64,000 nt of DNA from positions 1,467,649 to 1,531,648 of the forward strand of contig JAUFSD010000014.1 of the NCBI GenBank assembly GCA_033030425.1, given 5' to 3'. The notes beneath the pieces are model-generated. The model was not told the origin of the DNA. It searched no databases and worked only from the letters and a program-made list of their open reading frames with translations. This DNA comes from Verpa conica (taxonomy: Eukaryota > Ascomycota > Pezizomycetes > Pezizales > Morchellaceae). The number at the start of each line of letters is the position of its first letter. Within the stretch, counting starts at the first letter, position 1. The position numbers were made by a program, and so were the translations under genes. Of this stretch, positions 246-43,184 are shown in pieces.

Positions 246-623
246 TTTCACGGATGGATGTGCAGGGATACTCGGGGGATATTAAGCGGTGCCCTGTGCA
301 CGTAGGAGAATTGAGGTAGGGTAATCGGGGTTGGAAAGTGGGAACAAGGGAATTGTGCAAGCGGGGATTTTTGTATAAATAGGGAGCGTTGCTCCCTCTC
401 TGTAATAGTTTTTCTCTTCTTTCCTTACGCAACGTCTCTTCAGTTAGATTCAATAGAAGCTTTTTCTTCTCGCTGCCTCTCTACCACTACATCGCTACGC
501 GATCGCTGAATCCACTGTGACTACATCACAAACTCTTGGTATTTTGCTTGCAACGGATAGTTGCCTTGCCATTAAGTTAGTTGTGTCCTGTGGCTACGCT
601 GCTCCCACGCTGTCCCCTTGAAA
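246..623 (+). mobile_element. PB1: intact 378-bp PB element with 5-bp TSD ATTAG
   Basis: This is the only empty PB copy in the window and defines the element. It starts TTTCACGGA, ends CCCCTTGAAA, and is flanked by ATTAG at 241-245 and 624-628. It sits inside a LINE ORF1 whose sequence is otherwise collinear. The ends form a short imperfect inverted repeat (TTTCAmGG). The left half carries a TATA box and a small hairpin. The site used by LINEs in the other copies is intact here at 427-443 (ACGCAACGTCTCTTCAG). A 5-bp TSD, an internal promoter and about 380 bp would fit a solo LTR with unusual ends or a non-autonomous DNA element. No coding capacity is seen. Confidence 0.85.
374..396 (+). promoter_or_regulatory. 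TATA box and adjacent hairpin of PB1
   Basis: TATAAAT is followed directly by the 6-bp-stem palindrome GGGAGC-GTT-GCTCCC. All four PB copies keep this arrangement (TATAAATA, TATAAAAA or TATAAAAG followed by GGGAGCGwyGCTCCC). Such conservation suggests a working RNA polymerase II core promoter. The LINE landing site lies about 60 bp downstream of the TATA box, so it is probably just inside the transcript. Confidence 0.65.
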
Positions 624-1167
624 ATTAGGAAAGGTAAGGAAATTGAGGTAGTCATGACAGACTAAGGGTCTTTTTTCTTTTTTCTACGTTTTTCCTTTTT
701 ATTCTTTTACGATCGCAGCCAGTCTGTTAAAATTCTTCGGTTATAAGGTTATTTTTCTCTCGCAGTTTTTCCTTACATGTTTTGATCTGGTCAGGCAGTT
801 TTCTTGTTGCTTCATGTTTGTAACTTATTTTTAGTGCGCGCCATCTCTATGGCTTACCTAATAGGCCTTGGGCCTAGATGGGAAATAAATACTACTACTA
901 CTACTACTACTTGCATTCAATACCATACCTACCTTGTCCCTGAGTTCCTAGTCTCTCGATACTAGTCTTGCCTCGTGATTATCTTTCAAGGGGGACAGCG
1001 TGAGGACAACGTAACCACAGGACACAACTAACTTAATGGCAAGGCAACTATCCGTTGCAAGCAAAATACCAAGAGTTTGTGATGTAGTCACAGTGGGTTC
1101 AGCGATCGCGTAGCGATGTAATGGTAGAGAGGCAGCGAGAAGAGAAAGCTTCTATTGAGTCTAACTG

Positions 1168-3202
1168 AAGAGAGAGAGAGAGAGAGAGTTTTTATTTCCC
1201 ATCTAGGCCCGGGGCCCATTAGGTAAGCCATATAGATGGCGCGCACTGGAGGTAAATACAAAAATAAGAAGCGACAAGAAAACTACTTGACTAGGTCAAA
1301 ACGTGTAAGGAAAAACTACGAGAGAAAAATACCTTATAACTGAGGAAGTGTTACAGACTAGCCGTGGTCGTAAAGAAAAAAAGAAAATGTTCTGAAGAAA
1401 AAGAAACTCCCTAGTCCGTCATGACTACTTCGACTTCCTTACCTTTCTTGATGGATAATTTGGCTCGCGTAGGGCAAGCTGGGTCGTTGGCCTTATGTCC
1501 TGGGTTCTGCGGACAGTTAATGCACTTGATGGGTAGGTGGGTGCACTTAACGCCTCCCTTACAGGAGTGGCACTTATGTTTGGAGGAATGGTGGGAGCCA
1601 GCACACACTGCGCAGCAGGCTTCACTTTTGCAGCGTAGGTGGTGGTGGCCATAGCGTTGACAGTTTTGACACTGTGTGGATGGGGTGATGGGGATGAAGG
1701 GCTCGAGGCGGCACATCTTATTCAAGATGACTAGGTACCTGCACCCGAGGTTTTCGATGGTGACTCTTCCGGGGAAGGCGAGAATCATGGAGGAGTGGTT
1801 TTTGTTGGTCCGGTCTCTACTGAGCCATCTGGGAATTTGTGCTAGCTGCACATTTGGGAGGTTAAGCTCGACGTGGGCGGCTATCTCTTCGCCCGCTTTA
1901 ACTCCGTCTCCAACGGACGTGGGGACTCCGTGGAGGATAAACTTGGACCAACGACTGTTGGCTTTGGCTGAGGTGGGGGAGAGACCGAGGGCAGACAGTG
2001 CCGCACAGATGTTTTCTGAATACGGTGCCGCATTCTCTCCTGGTTGATTAGGGCCGCCAGAGAAGACCAGGTTTGACTTGCTGGTGTATCGGGCCATGAG
2101 GAAGGAAACTCCCGTTCCCTTAAGGGTGCTGTTGACTTTGGCCAGGATAGAGTCTTCAGTGACCCTGTCTGGCGCTGGTTCAGAGAGTTCTATCACAAAC
2201 TCTCTGTTGATCTTTGTGTACTGGGGTTTGAAGAGGGGTTCAACCTTCTTCTTTTTGGCTGGAGGGGAGGGGGCCTTGGGTGCTGGCTGGGCTGGCTTCT
2301 TTGCCGCCTCAGCGTAGCTGGCCTTTGTTTGTTTGTGAGGTTTAGGAGCCGCCGGTTTTGGGGCCTTTGGCTGTTGTGGTTGTGGCTGTGGTACTGGTGG
2401 GGAGGGTTGTTGTGGGCGGGTGTTGGTCTGTAAGCGAGCCACGGTCGCTTTGAGGTAGACTACCTCGTCTGTCAGGGTGTGAATGGAATTGAGGAGGGGG
2501 GAGATGGCGTTATGGATCAGCCAGGTGGTGTAGTTGACTGTCCCGCTCTTAGATTCAACGGAGGGGGGGAGGTAGGAGACCTTAGGGTCATAGGGGGCCA
2601 GGAAGTCTGGCTGGTCCAGAGACATCTCGGTGTCCTGGGTTTGGGGGGTAGGGTCTTTGAGGGGGGTCTCCACCTCGAAACTCTCTGCCAAAGCAGAGAA
2701 ACGACTACCGCTGGCGGTAGAGTCGACTCTAGGTCGTTTTGAAGGGGAGGCGGATCTGGAGGAGGAGGAGGCCGCTGTGCCAAAGGGAAGGAAGGTCTGG
2801 GTGAGCGGGGTCAGGGCGGGGGTGGATCCAGGAGTGGCGGCCATCACTTTTTCTGTGTGCCTCCGCTGGATTTCCGTTTCAATGTCCGCCGTTTTCTGCT
2901 GAAAGTAGGCCCAGTTGTTGTTGGCAATCTGGTAGCCTGATTTAGTGTGCTGTTGGAGAGTCATTCTCCTTCTCGCTTTGAGCAGCAATTTCAAGTCAGA
3001 ATCGTCGTATTCGCTTAGGGGTTTGTCGGCAAAGGGGTCGACATAGTCGATGTAGGCACCGGAGAAGGACATTTCTGAAGGTACGCAAGGCTTCAGAAAG
3101 AAATAGGGTATATAGATCGAAAGACTCTTATCAAAAGGAACTTGCCCGAAGGTTTGCACCCGTGAAAGAGGAAAAGGTCGTGGTATAGACACGCTCCCTA
3201 GG
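1168..3202 (-). mobile_element. ORF1-only LINE copy B (2.04 kb)
   Basis: The structure on the minus strand is a 5' UTR starting CTAGGGAGCGTGTC, a single ORF1, and a 3' UTR ending GGGCCTAGATGGGAAATAAA and a (CT)n tail at about 1168-1188. There is no trace of an endonuclease/reverse transcriptase ORF between ORF1 and the tail. It lies directly downstream of copy A, tail to head, both inside PB2. Length and structure match copies A and C, so this is a family and not a one-off deletion. It would need the enzymes of another LINE to move. Confidence 0.85.
1411..3072 (-). CDS. LINE ORF1 (gag-like) protein, copy B, 553 aa
   Basis: The reading frame is intact. The ATG at 3072 (MSFSGAYIDYVDPFADKPL) is chosen because the same start context is conserved in all three copies. 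The frame stays open upstream, but only through 5' UTR and the tail of the neighbouring element. In order the protein has an acidic N-terminus with LSEYDD, a Ser/Pro-rich linker containing SPSKRPR, a short helix near WLIHNAISPLL, a Pro/Lys/Ala-rich basic stretch, a conserved RNA-binding-like middle (from INREFVIEL to YLVILNKMCRLEPF), and a C-terminal Cys/His knuckle array. This layout is typical of Tad1-clade LINE ORF1 RNA-binding proteins that package element RNA. No enzymatic domain is present. Confidence 0.85.
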   Translation of the reverse strand: MSFSGAYIDYVDPFADKPLSEYDDSDLKLLLKARRRMTLQQHTKSGYQIANNNWAYFQQKTADIETEIQRRHTEKVMAATPGSTPALTPLTQTFLPFGTAASSSSRSASPSKRPRVDSTASGSRFSALAESFEVETPLKDPTPQTQDTEMSLDQPDFLAPYDPKVSYLPPSVESKSGTVNYTTWLIHNAISPLLNSIHTLTDEVVYLKATVARLQTNTRPQQPSPPVPQPQPQQPKAPKPAAPKPHKQTKASYAEAAKKPAQPAPKAPSPPAKKKKVEPLFKPQYTKINREFVIELSEPAPDRVTEDSILAKVNSTLKGTGVSFLMARYTSKSNLVFSGGPNQPGENAAPYSENICAALSALGLSPTSAKANSRWSKFILHGVPTSVGDGVKAGEEIAAHVELNLPNVQLAQIPRWLSRDRTNKNHSSMILAFPGRVTIENLGCRYLVILNKMCRLEPFIPITPSTQCQNCQRYGHHHLRCKSEACCAVCAGSHHSSKHKCHSCKGGVKCTHLPIKCINCPQNPGHKANDPACPTRAKLSIKKGKEVEVVMTD

Positions 3203-5243
3203 AAGAGAGAGAGAGAGAGAGAGAGAGATTTTATTTCCCATCTAGGCCCGAGGCCCATTAGGTAAGCCATATAGATGGCGCGCACTGGAGGTAAATACAA
3301 ACAATAAGAAGCGACAAGAAAGCTACTTGACTTAGATCAAAACGTGTAAGGAAAAAACTACAAGAGAAAAACACCTTATAACCAAAAATTTTTAACAGAC
3401 TAGCCGTGGTCGTAAAGAGAAAAAGAAAACGTTCTGAAGAAAAAGGAACTCCCTAGTCTGTCATGACTACTTCGACTTCTTTACCTTTCTTGATGGATAA
3501 CTTGGCTCGCGTAGGGCAAGCTGGGTCGTTGGCCTTATGTCCTGGGTTCTGCGGGCAGTTGACACACTTAATGGGTAAATGAGTGCACTTAACGCCTCCT
3601 TTACAGGAGTGGCACTTATGTTCAGAGGAGTGATGAGAGCCCGCACACACTGCGCAGCAAGCTTCACTTTTGCAGCGTAGATGATGGTGGCCGTAGCGTT
3701 GACAGTTTTGACACTGTGTAGATGGGGTGATTGGGATGAAGGGTTCGAGGCGGCACATCTTATTCAAGATGACTAGGTACCTGCACCCGAGGTTTTCGAT
3801 GGTGACTCTTCCGGGAAAGGCGAGAATCATGGAGGAGTGATTTTTATTGGTCCGGTCTCTGCTGAGCCATCTGGGAATTTGTGCTAATTGCACATTTGGG
3901 AGGTTAAGCTCGACGTGGGCAGCTATCTCTTCGCCCGCTTTGACTCCATCTCCGACGGATGTAGGGACTCCGTGGAGGATAAACTTGGACCAACGGCTGT
4001 TGGCTTTGGCTGAGGTGGGGGAGAGGCCGAGGGCAGATAGTGCCGCACAGATGTTTTCTGAGTACGGTGCCGCATTTTCTCCTGGTTGATTAGGGCCGCC
4101 AGAGAAGACCAGGTTTGACTTGCTGGTGTATCGGGCCATGAGGAAGGAAACTCCCGTTCCCTTGAGGGTGTTGTTGACTTTGGCTAGGATAGAGTCTTCA
4201 GAGACCCTATCTGGGGCTGGTTCAGAGAGTTCTATCACAAATTCTCTGTTGATCTTCGTGTATTGGGGTTTGAAGAGGGGTTCTACCTTCTTCTTCTTGG
4301 CTGGAGGGGAGGGGGCCTTGGGTGCTGGCTGGGCGGGCTTCTTTGCTGCCTCGGCGTAGCTGGCCTTGGTTTGTTTCTGAGGTTTAGGAGCCGCAGGTTT
4401 TGGGGCCTTTGGCTGTTGAGGTTGTGGCTGTGGTACTGGTGGAGGGGGTTGTTGTGGACGGGTGTTGGTCTGTAAGCGAGCCACGGTCGCCTTGAGGTAG
4501 ACCACCTCGTCTGTCAAGGTGTCGATGGATTTAAGAAGGGGGGAGATGGCGTTGTGGATCAGCCAGGTGGTGTAATTGACTGTCCCGCTCTTGGACTCAA
4601 CTAAGGGGGGAAGATAGGAGGTTTTAGGATCGTACGGGGCCAGGAAGTCTGGCTGGTCCAAGGACATCTCGACGTCCTGGGTCTGGGGGGTGGGGTCTTT
4701 GAGGGGGGTTTCCAACTCAAAACTTTCTGCCAAAGCAGAGAAACGGCTACCACTAGCGGTAGAGTCGACTCTAGGTCGTTTTGAGGGGGATGCGGATCTG
4801 GAGGAGGAGGAGGCCACGGTGCCAAAGGGGAGGACACTTTGGGTGAGCGGGGTAAACGAGGGGGTGGATCCAGGAGTGGCGGCCATGACTTTCTCAGTCT
4901 GCCTCCGCTGGATTTCTGTCTTGATTTCCGCCGTCTTTTGCTGGAAATAGGCCCAGTTGTTGTTAGCCATCTGGTAGCCCGCCTTGGTGTGCTGCTGTTG
5001 CGTGGTTCTTTTCCTCGCTTTGAACAGTATTTCCAGGTGAGAATCGTCGTATTCGCTTAGGGGTTTGTCGGCGAAGGGGTCGACATAGTCGACGTAGGGG
5101 CCGGAGAAGGACATTTCTGAAGGTACGCAAGGCTTCAGAAAGAAATAAAGTATATAGATCGAAAGACTCTTATCAAAAGGAACTTGCCCGAAGGTTTGCG
5201 CCCGTGAAAGAGGAAAAGGTCGTGGTATAGACACGCTCCCTAG
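3203..5243 (-). mobile_element. ORF1-only LINE copy A (2.04 kb)
   Basis: It has the same layout as copy B: 5' end at CTAGGGAGCG immediately after the PB2 sequence ACGCAACGTCTCTTC, one ORF1, a 3' UTR and a (CT)n tail at 3203-3228 that abuts the 5' end of copy B. The tail-to-head tandem fits a second insertion into the target sequence regenerated by the first. Site-specific LINEs are known to form such arrays. Confidence 0.85.
3453..5114 (-). CDS. LINE ORF1 (gag-like) protein, copy A, 553 aa
   Basis: The ORF is intact and nearly identical in sequence and length to copies B and C, with the conserved start MSFSGPYVDYVDPFADKPL. The Ser/Pro-rich linker, the basic Pro/Lys/Ala stretch, the conserved central domain and the terminal knuckles (CQNCQRYGHHHLRC and following CC, CHSC and CVNC clusters) are all present. 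Differences from copy B are scattered single residues, mostly in the N-terminal 100 residues. Three intact frames suggest recent activity or selection on ORF1. The likely role is RNA binding in a retrotransposition particle. Confidence 0.85.
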   Translation of the reverse strand: MSFSGPYVDYVDPFADKPLSEYDDSHLEILFKARKRTTQQQHTKAGYQMANNNWAYFQQKTAEIKTEIQRRQTEKVMAATPGSTPSFTPLTQSVLPFGTVASSSSRSASPSKRPRVDSTASGSRFSALAESFELETPLKDPTPQTQDVEMSLDQPDFLAPYDPKTSYLPPLVESKSGTVNYTTWLIHNAISPLLKSIDTLTDEVVYLKATVARLQTNTRPQQPPPPVPQPQPQQPKAPKPAAPKPQKQTKASYAEAAKKPAQPAPKAPSPPAKKKKVEPLFKPQYTKINREFVIELSEPAPDRVSEDSILAKVNNTLKGTGVSFLMARYTSKSNLVFSGGPNQPGENAAPYSENICAALSALGLSPTSAKANSRWSKFILHGVPTSVGDGVKAGEEIAAHVELNLPNVQLAQIPRWLSRDRTNKNHSSMILAFPGRVTIENLGCRYLVILNKMCRLEPFIPITPSTQCQNCQRYGHHHLRCKSEACCAVCAGSHHSSEHKCHSCKGGVKCTHLPIKCVNCPQNPGHKANDPACPTRAKLSIKKGKEVEVVMTD

Positions 5244-5435
5244 GAAGAGACGTTGCGTAAAGAAGAAAGAAAGAAAACTATTACAGAAAGGGAGCGACGC
5301 TCCCTTTTTATACCCCAAATCCCACTTTATACAATGCCCTTGTTCTCATCCTGAACACCTGTTACCCTACCTTCCTCCTTGTATAAGTCACGACAAGACT
5401 TACCCTGGCGCCCCTGATCGCTCCGTGAAATTATC

Positions 5436-5972
5436 GCCTGCTGTTCTCCAATAGGTGATCGGTTTTTACAGTACCCAAGTTTTCTGTCCGCGTCGCCTAG
5501 ACACACTCCCCTCACTAAGGCCCTTGCTACACAGATACAGGAGGATGAGGATTAGGTAAGTAGTAATAATACTAGGCCTTTGAGGCCGCAAGTGGTTTTC
5601 CACAGGGTAACGGAAATAGCTAAGCACCTCACCCAGCTGGTCTATAAGCTAAGGCACGTACGAATACAAGTGATGCATAAGGTTATATCAACGATTGATT
5701 AAAAAGATCATGATCTAGCTACATTAAAGTAATTTATTTTATGGCACTAGTGCCAAGACCAGTGCCAAGGTAAAACACGTGATGAATTCCCGTGACATGG
5801 TCTCTCATATACCCTTCGGCAAGACTACGAGGTTGCCAATCTCGCGGAGGACTTACTACGGGGAAAACCAGTAAACCTCTAAAATAGGCCAAAATATAGC
5901 CCTGTCGAGGACTCAACCTACCTTCCAGAGGCATCTAAATAAGCTCACCATGGGAAGGGCGTATCGAAGCTA
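5436..5972. other. Intergenic, no gene recognised
   Basis: This stretch follows the PB2 target duplication. It holds only short frames without recognisable protein features and no LINE-like sequence. It ends at the left terminal repeat of the next MITE. Confidence 0.5.
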
Positions 5973-20276: not shown

Positions 20277-20291
20277 GGGTGAGCGACTGTA

Positions 20292-22879: not shown

Positions 22880-23041
22880 ACGTTAGTTAGACAGCACCCC
22901 AACGTCTAGAACAGAACCAAACCCTCAGATTATCGGAGAAGACGACATAAATTTCCCCAGATAGTCTCTAATTCAAAGTATATATCTCCAAGGTTTCATC
23001 TCAGAAATATTCCCTAAGCTGACCTTTTGATTAGCAGCTCG

Positions 23042-26000: not shown

Positions 26001-28238
26001 TAGGCAACAAATATGAGCTTTTGTACATGCGGACGGGAGACCCAGAAAAGCTTGAGAATGCCATACGGCTAGCGAATCAGTCAATTGAGATAGCAGACGG
26101 CAACCCAAAACGTGTTGGGAACCTTAATAACCTAAGTATCAAGTTATTGAAACGATATCAAAGATCCAAGCGTTTCGAAGACCTCAAAGAGTCCATCAAG
26201 CGGGCAGAGCAAGCAGTTGCTGAAATTCCTGCCAGCTCCTACTACCACCCTGATAGTGCTGCAATGTTTTCTAACCTTAGCGAAGGTCTAGCACTTAGGT
26301 ACAACCTTCTTTCCTTTTCTTGTGCTTAAACCATTAACTCTATATAGGTATAAGTATTCACATGTACCAGAGGATCGTAAGCGCGCAATCGACCTAGGGA
26401 AGAAGGCAGTGAATGCTGTTCCTTGGAACCTACCAGACCGTGCCATATACCAGTACAACTTGAGTCACCACCTAAAAGAGAGGTTTGACAAGACGGGTAA
26501 TGCCGAAGATTTCCAGCAAGCTCTCAATCACCTAAACGAAGCTTTTAAAAATAAGCATGCAACTCCAGTTATTCGAATACACGCTGCAAGACTGATAGCA
26601 AAACTCCTACAAAAAGATAAAAAATGGGTAGAAATCAACAAAGTTACTAGTGAAGCTATTGAGCTTCTCCCACTTGTCAGTCCACGATCACTAGACCAGA
26701 ATGATCAGCAGGATGTACTGAAAGAATTCGCCGGCTTCGCTTCACTTGCTGCTGCGGTAGCTCTTAACGCCGAAGAGTCTCTTAACGCTGAGGAGTCGGC
26801 GACTAATGCCTTAAGGCTTCTAGAGCTTGGTCGAGGTATTATCACAGGCATCCGGCTGGACAATAGGATAGATATCTCGGGGCTCAGCAAAGAGCATCAA
26901 GATATCGCCAAGGAATTCCAAGAGCTTCGAGATGAACTTGACTCGTCAAATAATCCATTATCGATTCCTCCAGGACCACTAGGGCAGTCGCCTTATGGGT
27001 CTCTCGCGACAGAGCCCACCCGACGCCAGGAAGCCAGCGACAGATTCGCTAAACTAATCCACATCATCCAACACCAGCGGGGCTTTAATAACTTCCTCAG
27101 ACCCCCTGATGAGAAGGAGCTCAAAGATGCTGCATCGTCCGGTCCTGTTGTTGTCATCAACGCCTCTATCCGCTGCGATGCATTCCTCATTCAAAAGGAT
27201 AGTATTAGCGTATTGAAATTAACCAACTTAGATGAAACCAGCATTGAGTACTACGCAGACATTTTAAAAGCACGTAGGTCGGAAAGGAATATTATGCTAC
27301 TGCTGGATTGGCTTTGGACTTCCATGGCAGAACCGGTTTTGAATAAGCTGGGGTTCAAGGAGACTCCGTCGCGGGGAAGCGAGAAATGGCCACGGGTATG
27401 GTGGGTGCTGACTGGCCGAATGTGTCATTTTCCGATACATGCCGCCGGACAACATTCTGCGCATTCTACAGACACTGTACTTGATCGAGTGGTGTCTTCG
27501 TACAGTCCTACTATCAAAGCACTATTGTATACTCGTCGGAACAAACTCAAGGAACGTGAAGTCGATAATGTTTTGCTCGTCTCGATGCCTAAAACGCCTG
27601 AGCTTCCGGATCTTTTGGGGACTACAAAAGAAGTGGAAGCCGTTGGATCAAAGCTTTCTCCTCTCATGGAAGTAGCGAGCCTAAAACTACCTACTAAGCA
27701 AGATGTCCGAGAAAAATTGAAAAACTGCAAAATATTTCATTTTGCGGGTCATGGCGAATCAAACTCCTCCGATCCATCGAAGAGTGGTTTAATTGTTCAG
27801 GATGGTCTTACTGATCCTATCACTGTTAAGGATCTACTCGATATTAAGCTACACGAAGACCCCCCTCAGCTTGCGTATCTGTCGGCTTGCTCAACTGGAG
27901 TGAATTCGGTAGAACCTCTGCTAGACGAGGGGATACATCTCATAGGTGCCTTCCAGCTTTCCGGATTCCGACACGTGATTGGGTCACTATGGACAGTGTA
28001 TGACGAGCACGCCGTTCAAGTGGCTGGAGACGTTTATGGGGAAATGATTAAGGGAGGGATGAGCGATGAATCAGTATGTCTAGGTCTACATAATGCTTTG
28101 AAAGCTCTCCGAAGAGATGTCCCCCTGCCCGGCGAGCCCAGAGACTCAGTGGTGGTAGGTGTGAGCGGTGATGACAATGACATAGAGAAAATTAGTGGAC
28201 CACTTTCATGGGCTGCATATATTCATACGGGGGTCTAA
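23042..28238 (+). CDS. TPR-CHAT protein (caspase-like putative protease), two exons, 1715 aa
   Basis: The exons are 23042-26298 and 26348-28238, joined across a 49-bp GTACAA...TAG intron. The spliced length is 1,716 codons including the stop. The start MRIPEIEMAG is the first ATG in an ORF with no stop for 3.2 kb. Residues of about 60-1190 are tandem TPR-like repeats of about 45 residues (pattern: LExAIxxAEQAVxxTPxxHPDRxxxLxxLSxxLxxRYxxT). The C-terminal CHAT domain (about 1370-1715) has the expected His in FHFAGHGES (about 1551) and Cys in LSACSTG (about 1599). CHAT domains are separase/caspase-type proteases; bacterial TPR-CHAT proteins act as effectors, for example with type III-E CRISPR. 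Some repeats are close to identical at DNA level, a sign of recent expansion. Likely cytosolic; substrate unknown. Confidence 0.88.
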
Positions 28239-31489: not shown

Positions 31490-32255
31490 AGTGTCTTGAG
31501 CTTGGTAAACTGAAGGTCTGTAGGAATTTGTGGATCCAATCAACCGACTTTAGTATTAACGACTTTATGTTTATATATTCGTTAACTAATCGAAGAGGAA
31601 AACATGAGAGTTGTCCTCCACCTCATCGTAGTTGGTAGAGATGCAGAGTAACAAGTGGATCAGGCCACCCAAAGAACTCTGGAATGAAGGGTGCCAGACG
31701 TTTTCATTGGTGCGAGGCAGCAAATATGTCACTATAAGTGATGTTGGGGCTATCGTGTTTCCAATGAAGGCTGGAATGATAGTGTTCTGCACCCTGGCTG
31801 TGTGATTTTCGTTGAATGTTCGACATGTGAAACGCAGAGGTAAGGACTGGACCTGGAGGATGGAGTCGACTAATTGGTTCTGGGGTCTAGAAATAGTTCT
31901 ACATGAAGTTACCGGACTCTGAGACTCTGGTCAGCAGTAATCCCTGCTCGCGCATCTGGGAAAATATGGTACATACCCACAATCGGTGCTGGAGGTTATC
32001 AGTCATGCAGGGCAAGAGTTCCAAGTTGATAGAGAGCTCAGTAACCAATCCCGTAGCACTAGAGGATGTTTCAAGGGGACAGCGTGAGGACAGCGTAACC
32101 ACAGGACACAACTAACTTAATGGCAAGGCAACTATCCGTTGCAAGCAAAATACCAAGAGTTTGTGATGTAGTCACAGTGGATTCAGCAATCGCATAGCGA
32201 TGTAAACGGCGGAGAGGCAGCAAGAAGAGAAAAGCTTCTATTAAATCTAACTGAA

Positions 32256-34294
32256 GAGAGAGAGAGAGAGAGAGATTTTATTTCCCATCTAGGCCCGGGG
32301 CCCATTAGGTAAGCCATATGGATGGCGCGCACTGAAGATAAATACAAACAATAAGAAGCGACAAGAGAGCTACTTGACTTAGATCAAAACGTGTAAGGAA
32401 AAACTACGAAAGAAAAATACTTTATAACCGAAAAATTTTTACAGACTAGCCGTGGTCGTAAAGGAAAAAGAAAAAAAGGCGTACTTAAAAAAAGAAGAAG
32501 AACTCCCTAGTCCGTCATGACTACTTCAACTTCCTTACCTTTCTTGATGGATAACTTGGCTCGCGTAGGGCAAGCTGGGTCGTTGGCCTTATGTCCTGGG
32601 TTCTGCGGACAGTTGACACACTTGATGGGTAAATGAGTGCACTTAACGCCTCCTTTACAGGAGTGGCACTTATGTTCGGAGGAGTGATGAGAGCCAGCAC
32701 ACACTGCGCAGCAAGCTTCACTTTTGCAGCGTAGATGATGGTGGCCGTAGCGTTGGCAGTTTTGACACTGTGTAGATGGGGTGATTGGGATAAAGGGTTC
32801 GAGGCGGCACATCTTATTCAAGATGACTAGGTATCTGCACCCGAGGTTTTCGATGGTAACCCTTCCGGGGAAGGCGAGAATCATGGAGGAGTGATTTTTA
32901 TTGGTCCGGTCTCTACTGAGCCATCTTGGAATTTGTGCTAAGGGCACATTTGGGAGGTTAAGCTCGACGTGGGCGGCTATCTCTTCGCCCGCTTTAACTC
33001 CATCTCCGACGGACGTGGGGACTCCGTGGAGGATAAACTTGGACCAACGGCTGTTGGCTTTGGCTGAGGTGGGGGAGAGACCGAGGGCAGACAGTGCCGC
33101 ACAGATGTTTTCTGAATACGGTGCCGCATTTTCTCCTGGTTGGTTGGGGCCGCCAGAGAAGACCAGGTTTGACTTGCTGGTGTATCGGGCCATGAGAAAG
33201 GAAACTCCCGTTCCCTTGAGGGTGTTGTTGACTTTGGCCAGGATAGAGTCTTCAGAGACCCTGTCCGGCGCTGGTTCAGAGAGTTCTATCACAAACTCTC
33301 TGTTGATCTTCGTGTATTGGGGTTTGAAGAGGGGTTCGACCTTCTTCTTTTTGGCTGGAGGGGAGGGGGCTTTGGGTGCTGGCTGAGCTGGCTTCTTCGC
33401 TGCCTCAGCGTAGCTGGCCTTTGCTTGTTTATGGGGTTTTGGGGCCGCCGGTTTTGGGGCCTTTGGCTGATGTGGTTGTGGCTGTGGTGCTGGTGGGGAG
33501 GGTTGTTGTGGACGGGTGTTGGTCTGTAAGCGAGCCACGGTCGCTTTAAGGTAGACCACCTCGTCCGTCAAGGTGTCGATGGATTTGAGAAGGGGGGAGA
33601 TGGCGTTGTGGATCAGCCAAGTGGTGTAGTTGACTGTCCCGCTCTTGGACTCGACGGAGGGGGGAAGGTAGGAGACCTTAGGGTCGTAGGGGGCCAGGAA
33701 GTCTGGCTGGTCCAGAGACATCTCGGTGTCCTGGGTTTGGGGAGTGGGATCTTTGAGGGGGGTCTCTACCTCAAAACTCTCTGCCAAAGCGGAGAAACGG
33801 CTACCGCTGGCGGTAGAGTCGACTCTAGGTCGTTTTGAGGGGGATGCGGATCTAGAGGAGGAGGCCGCTGTGCCAAAGGGAAGGAAGGTTTGGGTGAGCG
33901 GGGTCAGGGCGGGGGTGGATCCAGGAGTGGCGGCCATCACTTTCTCTGTGTGCCTCCGCTGGATCTCCGTGTCGATTTCCGCCGTCTTCTGTTGAAAGTA
34001 GGCCCAGTTGTTATTCGCAACTGTGAAGCCCTTAGAGGAGTGCTGCGCAAGAGTCATTCTCTTTCTTGCTTTAAGCAGTACTTTCAACGTGGGATCGTCG
34101 TATTCGCTTAGTGGTTTGTCGGCGTAGGGGTCGACATAGTCGAAGTAAGAGCCGGAAAAGGACATTTCTGAAGGTACGCAAGGCTTCAGAAAGAAGTAAG
34201 GTATATAGATCAAAAGACTCTAATCAAAAGGAGCTTGCCCGAAGGTTTGCGCCCGTGAAAGAGGAAAAGGTCGTGGTATAGACACGCTCCCTAG
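32256..34294 (-). mobile_element. ORF1-only LINE copy C (2.04 kb)
   Basis: The 5' end is CTAGGGAGCGTGTC directly after ACGCAACGTCTCTTC of PB3. One ORF1, a 3' UTR and a (CT)n tail at 32256-32275 abut TTCAG of the PB 3' half. It is the third copy with the same length and no ORF2. Confidence 0.85.
32507..34165 (-). CDS. LINE ORF1 (gag-like) protein, copy C, 552 aa
   Basis: It is an intact frame from MSFSGSYFDYVDPYADKPL to ...VEVVMTD, collinear with copies A and B except for one Ser fewer in the linker and scattered substitutions near the N-terminus. The conserved central domain and Cys/His knuckles are unchanged. It encodes a LINE RNA-binding ORF1 protein with no enzymatic domain. Confidence 0.85.
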   Translation of the reverse strand: MSFSGSYFDYVDPYADKPLSEYDDPTLKVLLKARKRMTLAQHSSKGFTVANNNWAYFQQKTAEIDTEIQRRHTEKVMAATPGSTPALTPLTQTFLPFGTAASSSRSASPSKRPRVDSTASGSRFSALAESFEVETPLKDPTPQTQDTEMSLDQPDFLAPYDPKVSYLPPSVESKSGTVNYTTWLIHNAISPLLKSIDTLTDEVVYLKATVARLQTNTRPQQPSPPAPQPQPHQPKAPKPAAPKPHKQAKASYAEAAKKPAQPAPKAPSPPAKKKKVEPLFKPQYTKINREFVIELSEPAPDRVSEDSILAKVNNTLKGTGVSFLMARYTSKSNLVFSGGPNQPGENAAPYSENICAALSALGLSPTSAKANSRWSKFILHGVPTSVGDGVKAGEEIAAHVELNLPNVPLAQIPRWLSRDRTNKNHSSMILAFPGRVTIENLGCRYLVILNKMCRLEPFIPITPSTQCQNCQRYGHHHLRCKSEACCAVCAGSHHSSEHKCHSCKGGVKCTHLPIKCVNCPQNPGHKANDPACPTRAKLSIKKGKEVEVVMTD

Positions 34295-34680
34295 GAAGAG
34301 ACGTTGCGTAAAGAAGAAAGAAAAACTATTACAGAGAGGGAGCAACGCTCCCCTTTTATACCACAAATCCCCCTTTATACAATGCCCTTGTTCCCATCCT
34401 TACATCTATTACTCTACCTTTCTCCTTGCATGAGTCACGACAGGACTCACCCTGGCGTCCCCGATCATTCCGTGAAAGGATGCTTTCACGGATCAATCAG
34501 GGGCGCCAGGGTGAGTCTCGTCGTGACTCATGCAAGGAGGGAGGCAGGGTAACAGGTATCGAAGAAGGGAACAAAGGCATTGTACAAATGGGAATTTTGG
34601 GTATAAATAGGGAGCGTTGCTCCTTCTCTGTAATAGTTTTCTTTCTTTCTTCTTTACGCAACGTTTCTTGATCGTTAGGG
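34278..34680. repeat. Head-to-head PB promoter halves forming a ~190-bp-arm inverted repeat
   Basis: The promoter halves of PB3 (minus) and PB4 (plus) meet at the 6-bp GGATGC, giving two divergent TATA boxes about 245 bp apart. Each arm contains GCGCCAGGGTGAG-like sequence, GACTCATGCAAGGAG, the TATA box and the GGGAGCGTTGCTCC hairpin. It is a potential bidirectional promoter and a long near-palindrome. Confidence 0.8.
34602..34623 (+). promoter_or_regulatory. PB4 TATA box and hairpin
   Basis: TATAAATA is followed by GGGAGCGTTGCTCC. The full-length LINE starts about 60 bp downstream, so this PB promoter would be placed to drive it. Confidence 0.6.
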
Positions 34681-34830
34681 ACAAAATACTTCGGAAATTA
34701 CTCTAAGCGACGGTTACACACACCAAAATCTCTTGTTTTTCATACCGTCAGACAACTTCCCCGCTTTAGTTCCATCAACGTTTCTCTTCAACGCTATCAG
34801 ATAGCTTGAAGACACCATACTACAGACATC

Positions 34831-36426
34831 GTGGATACCTCAGCCTCGCGTCCTGAGAGCCCATCCACCCCTCCCCCTCTCTTACCAAGGATATTCGCGC
34901 TACCGCTCTCCCCAGAGAAGTGCAGCCTTAAGCGAACTAATTCCTCCCCAAATCACCGGTCAAGCTCGCCTAGCAAGATGTCTAGACAAAGCACCCTCCC
35001 CTTTGGAACCACCACAGGCCCAGATAACACACCAGAACTCACAACGGACAGCTCAACCATGCCCGACCCCACCTTCCCCGTCGTCGAGGAAGAAGCAATG
35101 GACGAAGACAAAGACTCCAACTCTGACGGAGAAGAACCACACTTCACTGCCCCCCCATACACACAAGAATACGACCCGGAAACCAACTACCTTCCGGTAG
35201 CGCAAGACTCCACCATCTCTAAGTCAGGAGCTTTCAACTATATAGCGTGGCTGGTTGGAGAGTCCTCGCTAGCGAACCAGTCCGAGATCGCGAAACTCAG
35301 GAACGAGATTTCAGACCTCAAAGAAATTATCCAGAAACAAGCCCTGGACGCGCAAGTCAGGCACAATACCATTACTACCAATATACTACAGCTGAAAGCA
35401 GCCAGTAGCCATTCAATCCCAGCAAACCCTCCCCCGGTCCCCAGAGACACCAGACCAGGACAGAATAAAAAGAGTAATCAAGCCCAGCCCCCCAAAAACA
35501 AAAGCTACGCCGCAGCAGCAGCATCTGCACCAAAAACGGACAACTGGGAAAAAGTAGCACCAAAGAAAAAGGCCCCGCTCTTTAAACCAGAGTTCTCTAG
35601 AGTCAATAGAGAAATCATCATCAAAACCATCAGTGACATTCCCATCACCACCACCGACAACGCACTACACCACATCATAAGCAAAGGACTAGAACAAACA
35701 GGACAGAAAGTCCTGATGACCAAAAAACTGGGCAAACAGACAATAGTAGCATCTGCCCCCTTCGATCAGGACTCATCACATCTTCTCAAGTTCACCAAGG
35801 AAATAGCGGGCACCCTCAACAGACACGGGTTCAACGTCGGGGAAGTAAAGGCCAACTCCAGGTTGACAAAATTCCTGGTACACGGCATCCCAACAGATAT
35901 CGGAAAAGACGACAAGGAATCTGGAATGAACCTGGCCAGCATCATCACTGAAAGCTACAAACAAGTTAAACTAGCTCAAGTACCATACTGGTTCACCCAA
36001 AAAAAAAGCAGAGAAAACAAACCGTGGTCGACGATGGTCATAGCGGTGAACGGAAATTACACCCTAGAGACCTTGGGCTTTAGGTACCTCATAGTGGACA
36101 ACAAATTCTGCAGAATGGAGACATATCACCAGTACGGACCAAGCACACAGTGCCACAACTGCAATAAGTTAGGACACCCCACACCGCTGTGCAAAGAAAA
36201 AACCCCCACCTGCGCAGTCTGCGCAGAACAACACCACATCAAGGACCATAAGTGCGCCCAGTGCAAAGGAGGCATCACTTGCGAACACACCCCACATCGC
36301 TGCGTTAATTGCAACAACTCGCTACACAAATCCTCAGACAGGAACTGCCCGATGAAGCTACAGATAGCAAAGGACCGCAGAACAGCACAAGAGGAAGCAT
36401 ACAAAGAAGCCATGGACGCCGACTAA
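34831..36426 (+). CDS. LINE ORF1 (gag-like) protein of the full-length element, about 531 aa
   Basis: The frame opens at a GTG (34831). The first in-frame ATG is at about 34978 (MSRQSTLPFG), and the GTG may be a decayed ATG. It has the same order of parts as the ORF1-only family: Ser/Pro-rich N-terminus with SPSKMSRQSTLPFG, acidic stretch, WLVGESS helix region, basic Pro/Asn/Lys linker, conserved middle (FRYLIVDNKFCRMETY) and Cys/His knuckles (CHNCNKLGHPTPLC, CAVCAEQHH, CAQCKGG, CVNC). The stop is followed directly by the ORF2 ATG (TAAATG), which suggests ORF2 translation by termination-reinitiation. Confidence 0.8.
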   Translation: MDTSASRPESPSTPPPLLPRIFALPLSPEKCSLKRTNSSPNHRSSSPSKMSRQSTLPFGTTTGPDNTPELTTDSSTMPDPTFPVVEEEAMDEDKDSNSDGEEPHFTAPPYTQEYDPETNYLPVAQDSTISKSGAFNYIAWLVGESSLANQSEIAKLRNEISDLKEIIQKQALDAQVRHNTITTNILQLKAASSHSIPANPPPVPRDTRPGQNKKSNQAQPPKNKSYAAAAASAPKTDNWEKVAPKKKAPLFKPEFSRVNREIIIKTISDIPITTTDNALHHIISKGLEQTGQKVLMTKKLGKQTIVASAPFDQDSSHLLKFTKEIAGTLNRHGFNVGEVKANSRLTKFLVHGIPTDIGKDDKESGMNLASIITESYKQVKLAQVPYWFTQKKSRENKPWSTMVIAVNGNYTLETLGFRYLIVDNKFCRMETYHQYGPSTQCHNCNKLGHPTPLCKEKTPTCAVCAEQHHIKDHKCAQCKGGITCEHTPHRCVNCNNSLHKSSDRNCPMKLQIAKDRRTAQEEAYKEAMDAD

Positions 36427-39400
36427 ATGTGTGACATCTCAAAAACAGGCACAGCCCTAGCGCAGCAGCTGAACTGCGCCAAGGGAATGGCCTCCACTCT
36501 TTCAGTATTGGAACAAGCTAGTTCGTCCAGAAACATTTTTCTTTTGTTACTACAGGAACCGTGGGTCCAGGAAAACGGACTCCCCCCATCCATACCTAAT
36601 TTTGACTTATTCACTCCGGCAACTCCAGCAAAGTGCGCCACCTATGTTAGAAAAGACCTAGGGCTAAGACCGGTCATCACCCAGTCAGTCGAAAACTTTA
36701 TACTAGGGGTCACAATCCAAATCAACAAAAAAACAGTACTCATTCTTAATATTTACTCACCCGGAAGATCCAAACACATAGCAGAGGCGACAGCAAAACT
36801 CCAAGTCGATCCCAATACGTATCTAGCGGGAGACCTCAATAGCCACCATGAATGGTGGTACAAAGAAAAAACTCCTCTACATTCGGACAGAATAAGAGCA
36901 GACACCCATGGACACAAAGTAGCAGAATGGCTCGAGGATCAGAACCTAACGCTACTAAACGACTCCAGCTACACACACTATCCAAGGAACGGCCAGTCCC
37001 CGACAGTAATAGACCTGACAACGTGCAAAATAATAGCTTCAAGAGCCTAATACACAGCGTACAAACTGACGAAGGACCATCCCACAATTGAGATCACTCT
37101 GCGGTTCAGACGGCATGGAACTTCGAACCCCCAAAAAACACAACAAAAAGAGCGTGGAACAAGCTGAACACACAAATCTTCTCAGATGAGATCCGAAAAC
37201 TCAAAGCGAACCGGTACAACTGGACGAGCCCAACAAGCACGCTAGACAGTGTTAAAAGCATTCTTAAGGAAGTAGATCGCATCATAGAAACCACAGTCCC
37301 CCTGAGAAAAGCAGGGTGGTACAGCCACCCCTGGTGGACAGAGCACCTAAACACCCTAAAAAAAGAAGCGACAACAAGCGCCAGAATCGCAAGAAACCTC
37401 CCGCGCAATCCCGAAGCAAGAAAAACGGCAAACAGAGCAAGCAACCAGTGGAAACAAGCAGTCCGATACGCCAGAAGAGACTACATCAAACAGAACATCG
37501 CCAAAGCAGACAATAATACACTGTGGAAACTTGTCAAGAAACCCAAGAGAGTTATGAGAATACCGGAAATGCAAGGTGATGACACGTTTGCGGGGAAGGT
37601 GGACAGGTTTAACACATCCTTCTTCCCCAAAAATGACAGTCCCCTACCCCCAATTCCAGATAAATTTATACCCCCTTGTACCGAGGATCTCAGTAACGCA
37701 TACACAGAGATAACCATAGAAGAAATAAATCGGGCATTGTCAAGAAACCTAAAAACAGCACCAGGGGCGGACAACATGAAGTGGGACACAGTAGTGGCAA
37801 TACACAAAGCAAACCCCGAACTCCTCCAAGTAGTCTTCTCACAGCTACTGTGGCACGGCGTACACCCAGAAGAGTGGAAGATAGCCAAGTGCGTACCGAT
37901 ACTCAAACATCGAAAAACGGAACTACAAGAACCCAAATCCTACAGACCTATTTCCTTATTACCCTGCATGAGCAAGCTACTGGAAAGCATAGTGGCCAGA
38001 AGAATCACCCGGTATGGCAAAGAGTGCGGCGGACTCTCGAACTCCCAGATGGGAGCAGTGGAAGGACGGTCCAGCACAGACTCCCTGCTAAAAATGCTCA
38101 CCCCAGCACAGGAATGGCTCAGAATAAAAAAGACAACAGGCCAAAACCCTATAAGACCGGCCATACTTACAAACGACGTAGAAGGAGCCTTCAACCTGGT
38201 AAACCACGAGCGGCTAATACACATCATGAAAGCTAGGAAATTCCCCACGTATACCTGCAAGTGGGTGGAAAACTTTATCTCGCACCGAAAAGTCTTCTTT
38301 GCCTTCAACCAGGAAGAATCGGAACGGCTACCCTACAACTCAGGAGTACCCCAGGGCTCCCCACTCTCACCCATACTGTACATGATTCTAGCGGACCTAC
38401 TTCTCAGACCAAAAGAGACGACCACAGAACTTAACAACGTCTACATGGACGACGACGCCATGCTGCAAGGAGCCAGATCGGAGAAGTTCATTGCCATTAG
38501 GCTACAAGAACGGATGAGTGAGAAGGAACAAAAGGCACAGATACTGGGCATCCGTTTCGCCCCCGAAAAGGCAGACCTACTGTATCTCCTTCCAACAACC
38601 AGCAAATCCAGCAAGACAGTACCAGTTAATCTCTACGGCAAACCTGTCATCCCCCAAACGAACATAAAAATACTCGGAGTCTACCTAGATCAAAGACTCA
38701 CATTTAGAGAGCACATCAGCAAAGCTATCTCCAAAAGCAACACAATACTAGCAATGATCAAAAAAACCATCAACAACAACACGATCACACCTAAAAGTGT
38801 CTACAAACTAATAACAGGCCTTTTCCTGCCCTCCCTAATGTGGGGATCGGAAGTGTGGTGGACAGGTGCCAGACACATTCTGGACCGTCTGTCCCCAATT
38901 TACAACAAGGCAGCGCAGATAATAACGGGACTTCCCCAACACGTTGACACCGGAAGACTCCTGAAGGAGGCCGGCCTCCCCCCGCTCAAAACACAGCTGG
39001 ATATCAAATCACTACGATATGGCATCAGGACACTCAGTAGCACCAGCGACAGTCCCAACAAGTCAACTCTAGTAAAACTACTACAGAAAGAAAACCACTA
39101 TCACGGAGTAGGATTAGAGCGAATAGCCCACATTGTTCAGCACTACACTCAACATCAACCCATCGAAGACACAGAAGACATCCCAAAAGAACTGTGGCTC
39201 CCCCCTTACAACATTACTATATCAAACAACACCAAGGAAGAAGCGGCCAAAGAACACAATCACTGGGTCAGAAACAACCCAAACGTACTCCCAGTGTACA
39301 GCGACGGATCCAAAGACAAAACAGTCAGCGCGGCTTGGACAGGAAACCTGTCAAACCGGATATCAATAAAAGGAAGCGTAAACATAGGGCCGAAAGCGGA

Positions 39401-40076
39401 CATACTGGACGGAGAACTAGCAGCAATCGCAGGGGCACTCAGAGAGCTGGTAGCCTCCGGAGTCACGAAGACCGAAATATGCCTGATGGTCGATAACCAA
39501 ATGGCGCTAAAACGACTCACAGGGGCAGCAGCACCCAACAAAGAGTTTACAAGGCAAAGCCTGGAGGACATTAAGACGCTACAGCAGAGAGGCTGTAGTG
39601 TCAGAGGACAGTGGACCCCCTCACACGTTGGCATAACAGGAAACGATAAAGTTGACGCTCTAGCCAAAAAAGCACTCGAGATAACAGACACATACGGAAA
39701 GATTACCATCACCTGGCTCCAAAGCCTCCCACGACATGTACCACAAGAACAAACAGGCTTCACGAAGGGACCGTACCCACCTTACAGCGAAGTTAGCAAG
39801 CGCTTTGCAGACACACTCTTCAGAGTACGTAACGAGGCAACACATATCGATCCAACACACTTTCGAACATCAGCACAGTGCAAGTGCGGAGCGAATCTCT
39901 CCAGCAAGCACGTAGTACTACACTGCCCATTACTGGACCAACAAAGAAAGGAACTAATCGATCAAACACATGGAAGCTCCTGGGAAGACATAGTCAGCCA
40001 CGACAGCTATCTACCCCTACTCTCGTTCCTGAGAGCAACGAAAGTAGTTTGGAAAAAGAATAAAAGGAAAAATTGA
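36427..40076 (+). pseudogene. LINE ORF2 (endonuclease-reverse transcriptase-RNase H), broken
   Basis: Collinear coding runs over about 1,216 codons. First comes an APE-type endonuclease (LLLQEPWV, AGDLNSHHEWW, DLTTCKI). A frameshift near 37045 and an in-frame TGA at 37089 follow. The frame then runs on through a linker to a reverse transcriptase (YRPISLLPCMSKLLE, GVPQGSPLSP, VYMDDDAML), an RNase H domain (VYSDGSKD, DGELAAI, SHVGITGNDKVD) and a C-terminal Cys/His motif (CKCGANLSSKHVVLHC). The endonuclease and the rest can no longer be made as one protein, but RT and RNase H are otherwise intact. The break is minor, so inactivation is probably recent. Confidence 0.85.
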
Positions 40077-40286
40077 AGGCGACCTGCGGGAAGGAAGTTT
40101 TTCTTTTGTTTGCAGGCAATAATATCGGGCGATAAACGAAGGGGAAAAGGCTTTAGTTTTGTTTTTGTTTTTTGTTTTTTGTTTGTTTTTAGGCGGTAGT
40201 TTGTAGGCGGCCCTTCGGGGCTTACGTAGTGGCCCACGGGGCTAGATCGGACAATATATACTATACTTTACTTTACTTTACTTTCT

Positions 40287-42645
40287 TCCTCGTTATGAGG
40301 CATACCCACTCGGAATCCCAACCTCGTCGACGATAGAGTTACTGGCAAACCTTCGGGCGCGCATAACTTCTTCAGCAAAATTACCTCTGTTGTACATGTT
40401 GAGCATGAGAATACCGCAAACCTTCGGGCGCGCTGGTTCCTCTTTGTCGAATTCTACCTTCTTTCTGGTGCCCCCTTGGGGGAGTTGCGTCCACCAGCCC
40501 CTATTACCTCCGGACTTCACACTGCCAGTCTCTGTAAGCCTAGCGCTGGAACCTCTGTCAAAGTCTTCCGGAAACCCTCTCCATCTCACTTGATTTGGAT
40601 GAGTTCTTTACGTTGCCGCTTGAGCGCTTTCATTACAATTTTGGGGATCCCTTAACCAAGGACCATTCCCCACCATCACCAGCGAGCGGGCAGCCCCCCT
40701 CAACAACACATTATCCTACCGGACCAGGCAGACTCGATTCTCCAGGCTCCCCACTATACGACAACACTTTCTCTGACCGGAAAAAGTGTACCAGTCAAGA
40801 AGTGGTTGACATCCGGCTCTCATACGGTCATCCTGTGACGATTTAATCATCGACATGACTAGTCTCAAGTACCTCTCCATATAGAGACACCTAAGGATCT
40901 CCCTTGAGGCATAGGACTAGCTATCCCATTCCAGTCAATAGATACTAAGGAAAGTCATTACTACGATAGCCTGATCCCTAAGCGAGCTGGCGAGCTCCTA
41001 GGACGGAGCGAAGCTCACCGTCGTCGGTATGCGACAGAGACCAAAGTAATGCGTCTGTGGCTTATAGCTACGGGAGATACTAGTGCAATGAGACTGAAGC
41101 AGTTACCTCCATGAACAGAGTTAAGCTCCTGTTCCTCTAGGAGGAATAATAACAGCTTCGCTGATGGCCAATCTTATGGGAGGCCGAGAGCCATGAAACG
41201 AGAGCAAAGCTACGCTTAGTAGTTAGGGCCGCCAGCAAAATAAGTAATTAATTAACCTGGCGGCGTCACGAATCGAACCATAGGGGGCTAGGCCTTGTGC
41301 GTCGCCCTAAGGTCCTTATGGATCAAGATTACCTCTCCGCCACGACTCCAGGTTGGACTAGGAACGTGGGAAAGGAATCTAAGCAACGGCAGGAATCACC
41401 AGTGGGTTACCCTACCTAGGGGACTCTGTGTTTCTAACACCCCCGAGGCGCCCCACTGTGCCACCCGCCGTTTGCAGAGGGGGCCCCCCTGAGTTGCTGA
41501 TTCGCTAACAAAAAGACAAGTTTTGGACCCCAAAAATAACCCCAAAACCGTCAGGAAAATTTGTCCAACCGAACCAAACGCGGAGGGTATATGGGGGACA
41601 GTGCTGCGAATCCATAGGTGCAATCGGATTTGAAATCGGACCATTTTAGCAATAGTTACAGAGCTTTTAGTAACCAACGCTTTTTAGTCGCTAGTCTGTC
41701 AACCCCGCTAGTTCTTAGGGGCGCTCTAGACTCAGTTGATTTCCAAGCACGGAGGAATTGTTCCCCCGCTTCTTGGCAGCCTGCTCGCAATCAAAAATCA
41801 TAGCTTAAACCTGTCCTTCCCCCAGGACAATCATTCTTGCTAGTCAACGAACAACCGTTGTTCAGAGACCCTCATACTCTTTGCTAAAGACGTTTGTCTT
41901 CCCCTGGGAAGCAGAGCCTTTTAAAGTCTTTAGTTATCTATCCATTAAATCCTTATTCCTGTTTTGCCTAGGGACTGTCGACCTTCCGTGTTGACGAGCG
42001 GTTCTAAGCCTCGCTGCTGAAGCTTCTCGTCAGAAAGGGAGGTTGTTGGTTTTTTTTGGTACGGCAGTACTCCCCTGGGAGTGCCCCCGTTACACATCCA
42101 CCCCCTTACTATCAACGGTATGCCGACTGACAACGGTCTCTACCTTCCCTACCTCGGTTCCACATAGTGGAAACTCAACTCTACTTTACATCCTACGCTC
42201 CCCTTACCTCTCTGCCAGAGGATTGTCCGTGTCTAACTTCGGCTAGGGAGAGGGTCACGACGCCGGGAAACGGGAGCTCTCGTCCGTGAGGAGCTGTTCA
42301 TCATTTGCACCGCGATGTTAGTGAACCTCACTCGGGACCCGACACACCCCCCGGGATTCAAGCCCATCGACATGAAACGCCAGATTGGAAGATGCTTTTG
42401 GAAGAGCAAGAGTTGTTTATTATTCGGTTGCATGTTCTTTCTTTGGTGTCGCTTAGTTAGTTCTATGTGTTCTTTCTTTGGTGTGTTCCTCTACACGCTT
42501 AGTTCGTAGATACATGTACATTCTTTGGCCGGTACCCAGTACCGTTTAGTTAGCTTTGGCGGAGTTGTTTGGCGGTCTCTTCGGAGACTTACTTAGTGGG
42601 CCACGGGCCTAGATAGGAAATAAACACTTACTTACTTACTTACTT
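40287..42645 (+). mobile_element. Short non-autonomous LINE, (ACTT)n tail, with a solo LTR inside
   Basis: It lies tail-to-head behind the full-length LINE within PB4, starting CTCGTTATGAGG after a CTTC target remnant. Its end, GGGCCACGGGCCTAGATAGG and then AAATAAACACTT repeats, resembles the 3' end of the ORF1-only family, which suggests use of the same reverse transcriptase. Without the LTR and its duplication it is about 1.1 kb. It has a Pro/Ser-rich frame at about 40595 that is cut by the LTR and continues across it for some codons. No enzyme domain is seen. Confidence 0.65.
40834..42094. repeat. Solo LTR 1 (1261 bp), TSD CATCC
   Basis: It starts TGTGACGAT and ends CCCCGTTACA, with TGTrACG inverted ends, flanked by CATCC at 40829-40833 and 42095-42099. 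It is collinear with the LTR at 43185. Each copy has its own 5-bp duplication and there is no internal gag-pol. So it is a solo LTR, probably left by recombination between the LTRs of one element. It lies inside the short LINE. Confidence 0.9.
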
Positions 42646-43086
42646 TCTTCAGTCAGACTTAAATACAACTTCTTTCTTCGCTGCCTCTCCGCTGTTTCAT
42701 CGCTTCGCGATCGCTGAACCCACCTCATACTTCACAAACCTTTGGTATTTTGCTTGTAACGGATAGTTACCTTGCCATCGAGTTAGTTGTATCCTGTGGT
42801 TACGCTGCCCTCACGCTGTCCCCCTTGAAAGATGCCAAATTAGCAAAATACGCAGCGTTTGATGAAGTGTTTTTAAAGTAGATTGTCTTTGAAAGTAAGT
42901 GGTGTAAATTTAAGGTGGAAGAATTTATTGATGGTACGGAGATTCAGAATATCTTGAATGTTGGTGACTGTCAAGAACGACAAATCATCAGTTCTCACTC
43001 GGTCACAAATTGTCACTCGACCACCAGTCAGCCTTGCCCGTTTCATATCAGTTTCATGTCTAGTCTCATTGATGTTTCATGTATGG

Positions 43087-43180: not shown

Positions 43181-43184
43181 CCTC

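Follow-up and report, generated by a model that had tools for sequence, protein, structure and literature searches.

The window analysed here is a stretch of 64,000 nucleotides from contig JAUFSD010000014.1 of the pezizomycete Verpa conica, and the subject of this report is a repeat, called PB in the initial annotation of this DNA, together with the long interspersed nuclear elements (LINEs) that interrupt three of its four copies. PB is the long terminal repeat (LTR) of a Ty3/Gypsy retrotransposon and is named LTR1 in what follows, LTR2 being the name given to a second family whose copies hold LINEs at the equivalent position. One of the LINEs of the window has two open reading frames (ORFs), with an endonuclease and a reverse transcriptase (RT) in the second, and others have ORF1 only. 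The features concerned are the following:

246..623, + strand: PB1, an empty solo LTR1 with a TATA box, ACGCAACGT and an intact LINE site TCTCTTC^AG (cut after base 441); duplication ATTAG
984..5430, - strand: PB2, a solo LTR1 (3' half 984-1166, 5' half 5244-5430) split by LINEs A and B and itself inserted in an LTR2; duplication TTATC
32069..34477, - strand: PB3, a solo LTR1 (halves 32069-32252 and 34295-34477) split by LINE C; duplication GGATG
34484..42830, + strand: PB4, a solo LTR1 (halves 34484-34669 and 42651-42830) split by LINEs F and S; duplication GATGC
1167..3201, - strand: LINE A, ORF1-only, with a (CT)n tail, at the tail end of LINE B
3202..5243, - strand: LINE B, ORF1-only, with a (CT)n tail, at the LTR1 site
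32253..34294, - strand: LINE C, ORF1-only (570-aa open frame at 32507-34219), with a (CT)n tail, at the LTR1 site
34670..40288, + strand: LINE F, two-ORF, with an (ACTTT)n tail; ORF1 at 34810-36426, endonuclease at 36427-37050, RT and RNase H at 37092-40076
40289..42650, + strand: LINE S, short and non-autonomous, with an (ACTT)n tail, stacked on the tail of LINE F; a solo-LTR-like insertion at 40834-42094
8..916, + strand: 3' part of a sixth LINE, ending at 916, with an (ACT)n tail running into ACTTGCAT of LTR2
917..983, + strand: first piece of an LTR2 3' half, which resumes at 5436-5470 beyond the PB2 insertion
5436..5470, + strand: last piece of the LTR2 3' half, with the terminus GGTTTTTACA

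PB had been proposed to be a mobile host that carries a TATA box; this part holds, but it is not an independent element. It is an LTR, because PB pairs with 5-bp duplications flank gag-pol. When the whole Verpa conica assembly (45.84 Mb in 25 contigs), to which all genome counts below refer, was queried with PB1, at least 46 matches were obtained (40 of 209 first-look candidates were scored), among them six same-strand pairs spaced 5438-5446 bp apart. The three pairs that were read are all flanked by 5-bp duplications (GGGAA, CATGC and GTTGG) and have in common the ends TTTCACGG...CCCCTTGAAA and the sequence 3' of the 5' LTR. The single pair whose coding region was read (L031) encloses a Retrotrans_gag gag and a pol with RT, RNase H, integrase and a Tf2-type SH3 domain. 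The element is possibly of chromovirus type: SH3_Tf2-1 scores 61 bits, above its cut-off, and the chromodomain PF00385 reaches 23.1 bits, below the Pfam cut-off of 25.1. LTR1 is 369 bp long in the element read, and its termini are TTTCA...TGAAA rather than TG...CA. All four PB copies of the window are solo LTRs lying between perfect 5-bp duplications, and their original description stands in that three of the four are interrupted at the same point, TCTCTTC^AG or TTTCTTC^AG, which is intact in PB1. Elsewhere in this genome, at G000:C15:1344805-1352515, a rearranged cluster contains LTR1 copies in both orientations, with broken LINE pieces.

Five LINEs had been placed at the interruption point of the PBs. 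LINEs B and C, which start CTAGGGAGCG immediately 3' of ACGCAACGTCTCTTC, and LINE F, which starts GATCGTTAGG immediately 3' of ACGCAACGTTTCTT, do lie there, whereas LINE A directly follows the tail of LINE B, (CT)nTTC, and LINE S that of LINE F, (ACTTT)nCTTC. LINE F codes for an APE-type (apurinic/apyrimidinic) endonuclease together with an RT, as expected of a LINE, its matches to Exo_endo_phos_2, RVT_1 and RNase_H being divided between two open pieces that do not share a frame; the description as a full-length two-ORF copy needs correcting in that the second ORF is broken between endonuclease and RT. Named relatives of the LINE ORF2 are mostly fungal among the best 120 matches (e.g., Morchella sextelata, 39% identity over 69%). 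The sixth LINE (8-916) is broken by PB1 and, at the start of the window, by an LTR2 copy. LINE copies show 3' tails, a constant orientation and target sequence repeated at both ends, and the start base is identical in all 15 copies of the CTAGGG type.

The genome search with PB1 and the LINE ends favours the site specificity proposed at the outset, and neither of the contrary outcomes named beforehand, namely LINEs lying mostly outside PB and PB never being empty, occurred. Two queries made from LINE 5' ends gave 29 and 23 places, with all candidates scored, and two made from 3' ends gave 35 and 24; one of the 35, lacking a 3' end, was set aside, and the 24 places correspond to 22 LINEs, the other two being second pieces of one copy, which left 56 LINE 3' ends to be read, 51 of them in fetched stretches and five within the window. 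The 52 5' ends fall at the LTR1 site (23), the LTR2 site (15) or the tail of another LINE (11), with one unclear and two rearranged places, and the 56 3' ends lead into an LTR1 3' half (24), an LTR2 3' half (14) or the start of the next LINE (15), with three other or interrupted; L110 and L123 are counted as LTR1 although diverged. Altogether, 49 of the 52 5' ends and 53 of the 56 3' ends lie at the LTR1 site, the equivalent LTR2 position or a stacked LINE, as is characteristic of site-specific LINEs, and all placed LINEs are in sense orientation relative to the LTR. Empty PB copies are common, with 109 matches for the empty LTR1 site and none for a reversed-pattern control, and empty LTR2 sites number 55 (control 4) and 23 (control 1) in two lists that share at least one place, or about 70 overall.

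The second host family came to light through the many LINE 5' ends that are preceded by a non-LTR1 sequence, ...GTATAAAAGGGACGCATCTCTGTCAGTTAGTTAGTTCTTCACGCAACAACTTGCA, which is LTR2. This repeat starts with TGTCAAGAACAC, ends with GGTTTTTACA and has TG...CA termini; among its empty copies are ten same-strand pairs with a spacing of 6.34-6.46 kb, and a 1.2-kb piece inside one of these pairs codes for RT-RNase H and integrase. LTR2 is a second Ty3/Gypsy LTR family. It has two site alleles, ACTTATAT joined to TGTTACC and ACTTGCAT joined to TCAATACC. PB thus remains a LINE site, but not the only host. It is probable, then, that a LINE lineage with an APE-type endonuclease, RT and RNase H, accompanied by partners that are short or have ORF1 only, is specific for a single position within the LTRs of these two Ty3/Gypsy families.

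The tails and targets of the LINEs correspond to each other. In LTR1, (CT)n tails lead into CTCTTC, and (ACTT)n and (ACTTT)n tails into TTTCTTC; in LTR2, (ACT)n tails lead into ACTTGCAT or ACTTATAT. The tails agree with the target sequence immediately 5' of the insertion point and recreate the site, so that a second LINE can insert there, and head-to-tail stacks are found. Such a pattern might also be expected if the LINEs simply recognised a CT-rich or microsatellite-like motif of which the LTRs are the commonest carriers, the promoter being irrelevant: the tails are simple repeats and themselves serve as insertion points, and microsatellite-specific LINEs have been described (PMC4640811). 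However, the 9-mers TCTCTTCAG and TTTCTTCAG are each expected about 320-360 times by chance per 45.8 Mb at the base composition of the window (about 320 times for TCTCTTCAG), and despite these, every resolved LINE end lies at an LTR copy or another LINE; furthermore, the LTR2 target is a different one (ACTTGCAT or ACTTATAT) at an equal distance from the motif ACGCAAC. This explanation is considered unlikely. Autonomous LINEs with an uninterrupted ORF2 frame were found for each kind of tail:

C11:211.4-217.1 kb: autonomous LINE with a (CT)n tail
C13:1274.5-1280.8 kb: autonomous LINE with an (ACTT)n tail
C22:1242.5-1248.1 kb: autonomous LINE with an (ACTTT)n tail
C14:508.7-514.5 kb: autonomous LINE with an (ACT)n tail

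The ORF1-only LINEs share their kinds of tail with autonomous copies. Both ends are on record for 13 of the 15 A/B/C-subtype copies; these 13 measure 2.0 kb (11 copies) or 2.4 kb (two copies) and have no room for an ORF2. Over the 507 codons read, ORF1 is free of stops in 11 of the 15 and has stops in three, one copy with a different start being left out. The ratio of nonsynonymous to synonymous substitution rates (dN/dS) of ORF1 is 0.06-0.18, with a median of 0.13, over 78 pairs from 13 intact copies (the 11 of the A/B/C subtype and two of LTR2 type), the selection of intact copies biasing these values downward. Since the ORF1 of this subtype is 33% identical to that of LINE F, the ORF1-only LINEs look like an old, separate lineage and not like a recent deletion product.

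The position of the insertion site can be related to a putative transcript start. Two nucleotides 3' of the 5' LTR, the LTR1 elements (all three read) carry ACGTTGCGT and the one LTR2 element read carries TTGTTGCGT, which are the reverse complements of ACGCAACGT and ACGCAACAA, respectively, inside the same LTRs, and thus form a 9-nt complement. The primer-binding site (PBS) has the same 2-nt offset in both families, and the two differences between the families are compensated in its complement. From the start of TATAAA there are 53 nt to ACGCAAC in PB1 and 39 nt in LTR2, and 68 and 55 nt, respectively, to the LINE site, which lies in both families 15-16 nt past the start of ACGCAAC, the PBS-complementary stretch. 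In Tf1 and Tj1, such complementarity reflects an mRNA whose own 5' end acts as primer (PMC4600332). By analogy with these self-primed elements, ACGCAAC probably marks the transcript start; if the 9-nt complement works as in Tf1 and Tj1, transcription would begin at ACGCAAC and the LINE site would be at +15/16. The constant spacing, despite the different target sequence, is the strongest hint that the promoter matters. A constant position relative to the presumed start in two LTR families of different sequence could also be produced by open chromatin or transcription-coupled access at the start of the LTR, with site choice then not depending on the sequence specificity of the endonuclease. Insertion is nevertheless exact and in a single orientation, and the tails within LINEs are hit with equal precision, which makes such guidance by access very improbable.

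Under the preferred reading, in which the LINEs target the LTR position itself, the LINE would be transcribed from the TATA promoter of the LTR as a 15-nt LTR leader followed by the LINE, and the LINE endonuclease would nick the site, where the tail of the RNA could pair for target-primed reverse transcription. The leader might then pair with the upstream target and so give uniform 5' junctions, as has been postulated for R2, whose RNAs keeping upstream 28S sequence accompany uniform 5' junctions (PMC3774820). The ORF1-only and short copies would probably owe their mobility to autonomous LINEs that have matching tails and act on them in trans. Import of such a leader should leave as its trace a 5'-side LTR allele unlike the host LTR's own. 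In LTR2, the alleles disagree across the insertion in two of six paired cases, as against one of about 70 empty sites (Fisher p 0.015). The mismatching pairs are L050/L103, cleanly, and L072/L128, probably; L050 and, among the agreeing cases, L051 are 2.0-kb copies of clean structure, whereas L072 carries an internal deletion and the other three agreeing ones (L054, L076 and L078) hold further insertions. L074 and L057 were excluded, as nesting made the pairing of their ends unsure. The other allele occurs on the 3' side in three of the 14 junctions with a TGTTACC-type 3' half.

The wider interpretation, which we regard as an even call, is one of stable hyperparasitism: a promoterless LINE lineage would depend on the promoters of Ty3/Gypsy LTRs, insert just past their transcript start and carry the first 15 nt of the LTR as a leader for accurate 5' joining; its tail and target would have diversified in step with the two LTR families, and the ORF1-only LINEs would form a further parasitic layer.

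Several points weigh against the targeting or the history built upon it. Six places cannot be assigned to the site, namely the 5' ends L056 (the unclear one), L059 and L060 (the rearranged ones, which are one locus) and the 3' ends L111, L117 and L135; L117 and L135 are truncated by other repeats, and L111 could be an off-site LINE copy. The queries derived from the LTR-located copies of the window, and relatives with very different ends elsewhere would escape them. The start site and the LTR-driven transcription of the LINEs are putative. Leader import in LTR2 is suggestive only, because the pairs are few and were picked after inspection and because of the three TGTTACC-type junctions, and the LTR1 site alleles (TCTC or TTTC) give no leader-import signal, being uninformative in this respect because they are mixed within LTR1 types. 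Finally, occupied copies are somewhat clustered on a tree of 53 LTR1 5' halves, 33 of them empty and 20 counted as occupied (18 with a LINE and two of unknown content), a sample biased in that the empty copies came mostly from the best-match list: at least 12 label changes are needed, compared with a mean of 16.3 for shuffled labels, and 17 of 1000 shuffles reach 12 or fewer. The sampled LTRs were thus not hit at random.

This clustering, together with the intact outer 5-bp duplications of LINE-bearing LTRs, would fit the alternative offered in the initial annotation, that LTR and LINE move jointly as one composite element. On the same tree, however, LINE-bearing LTRs are scattered among empty ones, and the at least 12 label changes indicate many separate insertions, though somewhat clustered. 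In addition, empty LTRs are common, copies of a given LTR family hold different LINE types, a single LINE type occurs in many LTR backgrounds, and LINEs are also found at LINE tails. The composite unit is accordingly not favoured and seems extremely improbable.

Most known targets of LINEs are multicopy genes, telomeres or microsatellites, SART1 and MoTeR belonging to the microsatellite- and telomere-specific LINEs, and Tx1L is a Xenopus LINE with a target-specific endonuclease whose target, Tx1D, is a DNA transposon. The LINEs described here resemble Tx1L as site-specific APE-type LINEs aimed at another mobile element, and differ from it in that their targets are the LTRs of two Ty3/Gypsy families beside a putative transcript start; host, tail and clade may differ as well. 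The statement that a mobile element had not been described as a host site was too broad, since transposons or other transposable elements are already named as LINE targets in two publications (PMC4640811, PMC8869645). No paper with LTR-specific LINEs in its title was among the matches listed in the open-access literature, which in two cases were 20 of 590 and 12 of 73; one match on targeting of LTRs (PMC10787394) concerned repeat-induced point mutation. What would be new is the choice of LTRs next to the putative transcript start, and not the targeting of transposons as such.

Other known systems share single features with this one. R2, in 28S rDNA, is likewise co-transcribed with its target, leftover upstream target RNA being postulated to give the uniform 5' junctions, a co-transcription that is putative for the LINEs in LTRs; R2 uses rDNA transcription and a ribozyme resembling that of hepatitis delta virus (PMC3774820), whereas here the target is an LTR, and scans of the window gave no Rfam family above threshold and no tRNA match. 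With microsatellite- and telomere-specific LINEs there is in common a repeat-like tail matching the target and head-to-tail stacking (PMC4640811), although a unique LTR position is hit here instead of an array of repeats. HeT-A, a gag-only LINE found at fly telomeres, also keeps ORF1 without an RT, an analogy of kind and not of shared descent; it depends on the RT of a partner, and its transcription is aided by the upstream element in the array (PMC5537684). Unlike HeT-A, the present LINEs are non-telomeric, their promoter would be that of the LTR, and their dependence on a partner is putative. The likeness to Tf1 and Tj1 concerns the host elements and not the LINE, namely that the PBS is complementary to what is presumed to be the start of the mRNA of the same element (PMC4600332), with the differences that the complement here is 9 nt long and that LTR1 ends TTTCA...TGAAA, not TG...CA.

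The target would be the region around the promoter in a different class of retrotransposon, with the distance to the putative transcript start kept constant, and such targeting would offer a simple explanation of how a LINE comes to be placed behind a promoter after each insertion. With two LTR families and several tail types, the system amounts to a natural experiment in which LINE target choice, RNA tail and host sequence have changed jointly, and both 5' joining and the trans-mobilisation of ORF1-only LINEs are open to testing in it.

Some further observations concern the window and the genome at large. Positions 1-5470 form a nest at least four layers deep: within an LTR2 lies the (ACT)n LINE, which has received an LTR2 copy and PB1 as insertions, and the 3' half of the outer LTR2 is interrupted by PB2 with its LINEs A and B. 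The sequence at 42967-43184 starts with TGTCAAGAACGACAAATC and resembles LTR2 at its start only; the same start breaks a short LINE elsewhere (L087), and the sequence is possibly a third LTR family. A 1.26-kb repeat, TGTGACGAT...CCCCGTTACA, has two copies, at 40834-42094 (duplication CATCC, inside LINE S) and 43185-44439 (duplication GCCTC, beside PB4), and looks like the solo LTR of a further element. A distant LINE family in the same genome is represented by 17 RT matches of about 25% identity and two further pieces, with open frames of 1089-1094 aa in many copies. In the window, 23018-28238 (+) codes for a long repeat-rich protein, TPR/CHAT-like by eye, and 17455-19275 (-) for a caspase-domain protein whose best 120 matches include bacterial and fungal caspase proteins of about 31-38% identity. 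Relatives of both this protein and the LINE ORF2 include, among many others in their best 120 matches, Pezizomycetes (Morchella, Kalaharituber and Trichophaea) at 34-39% identity.

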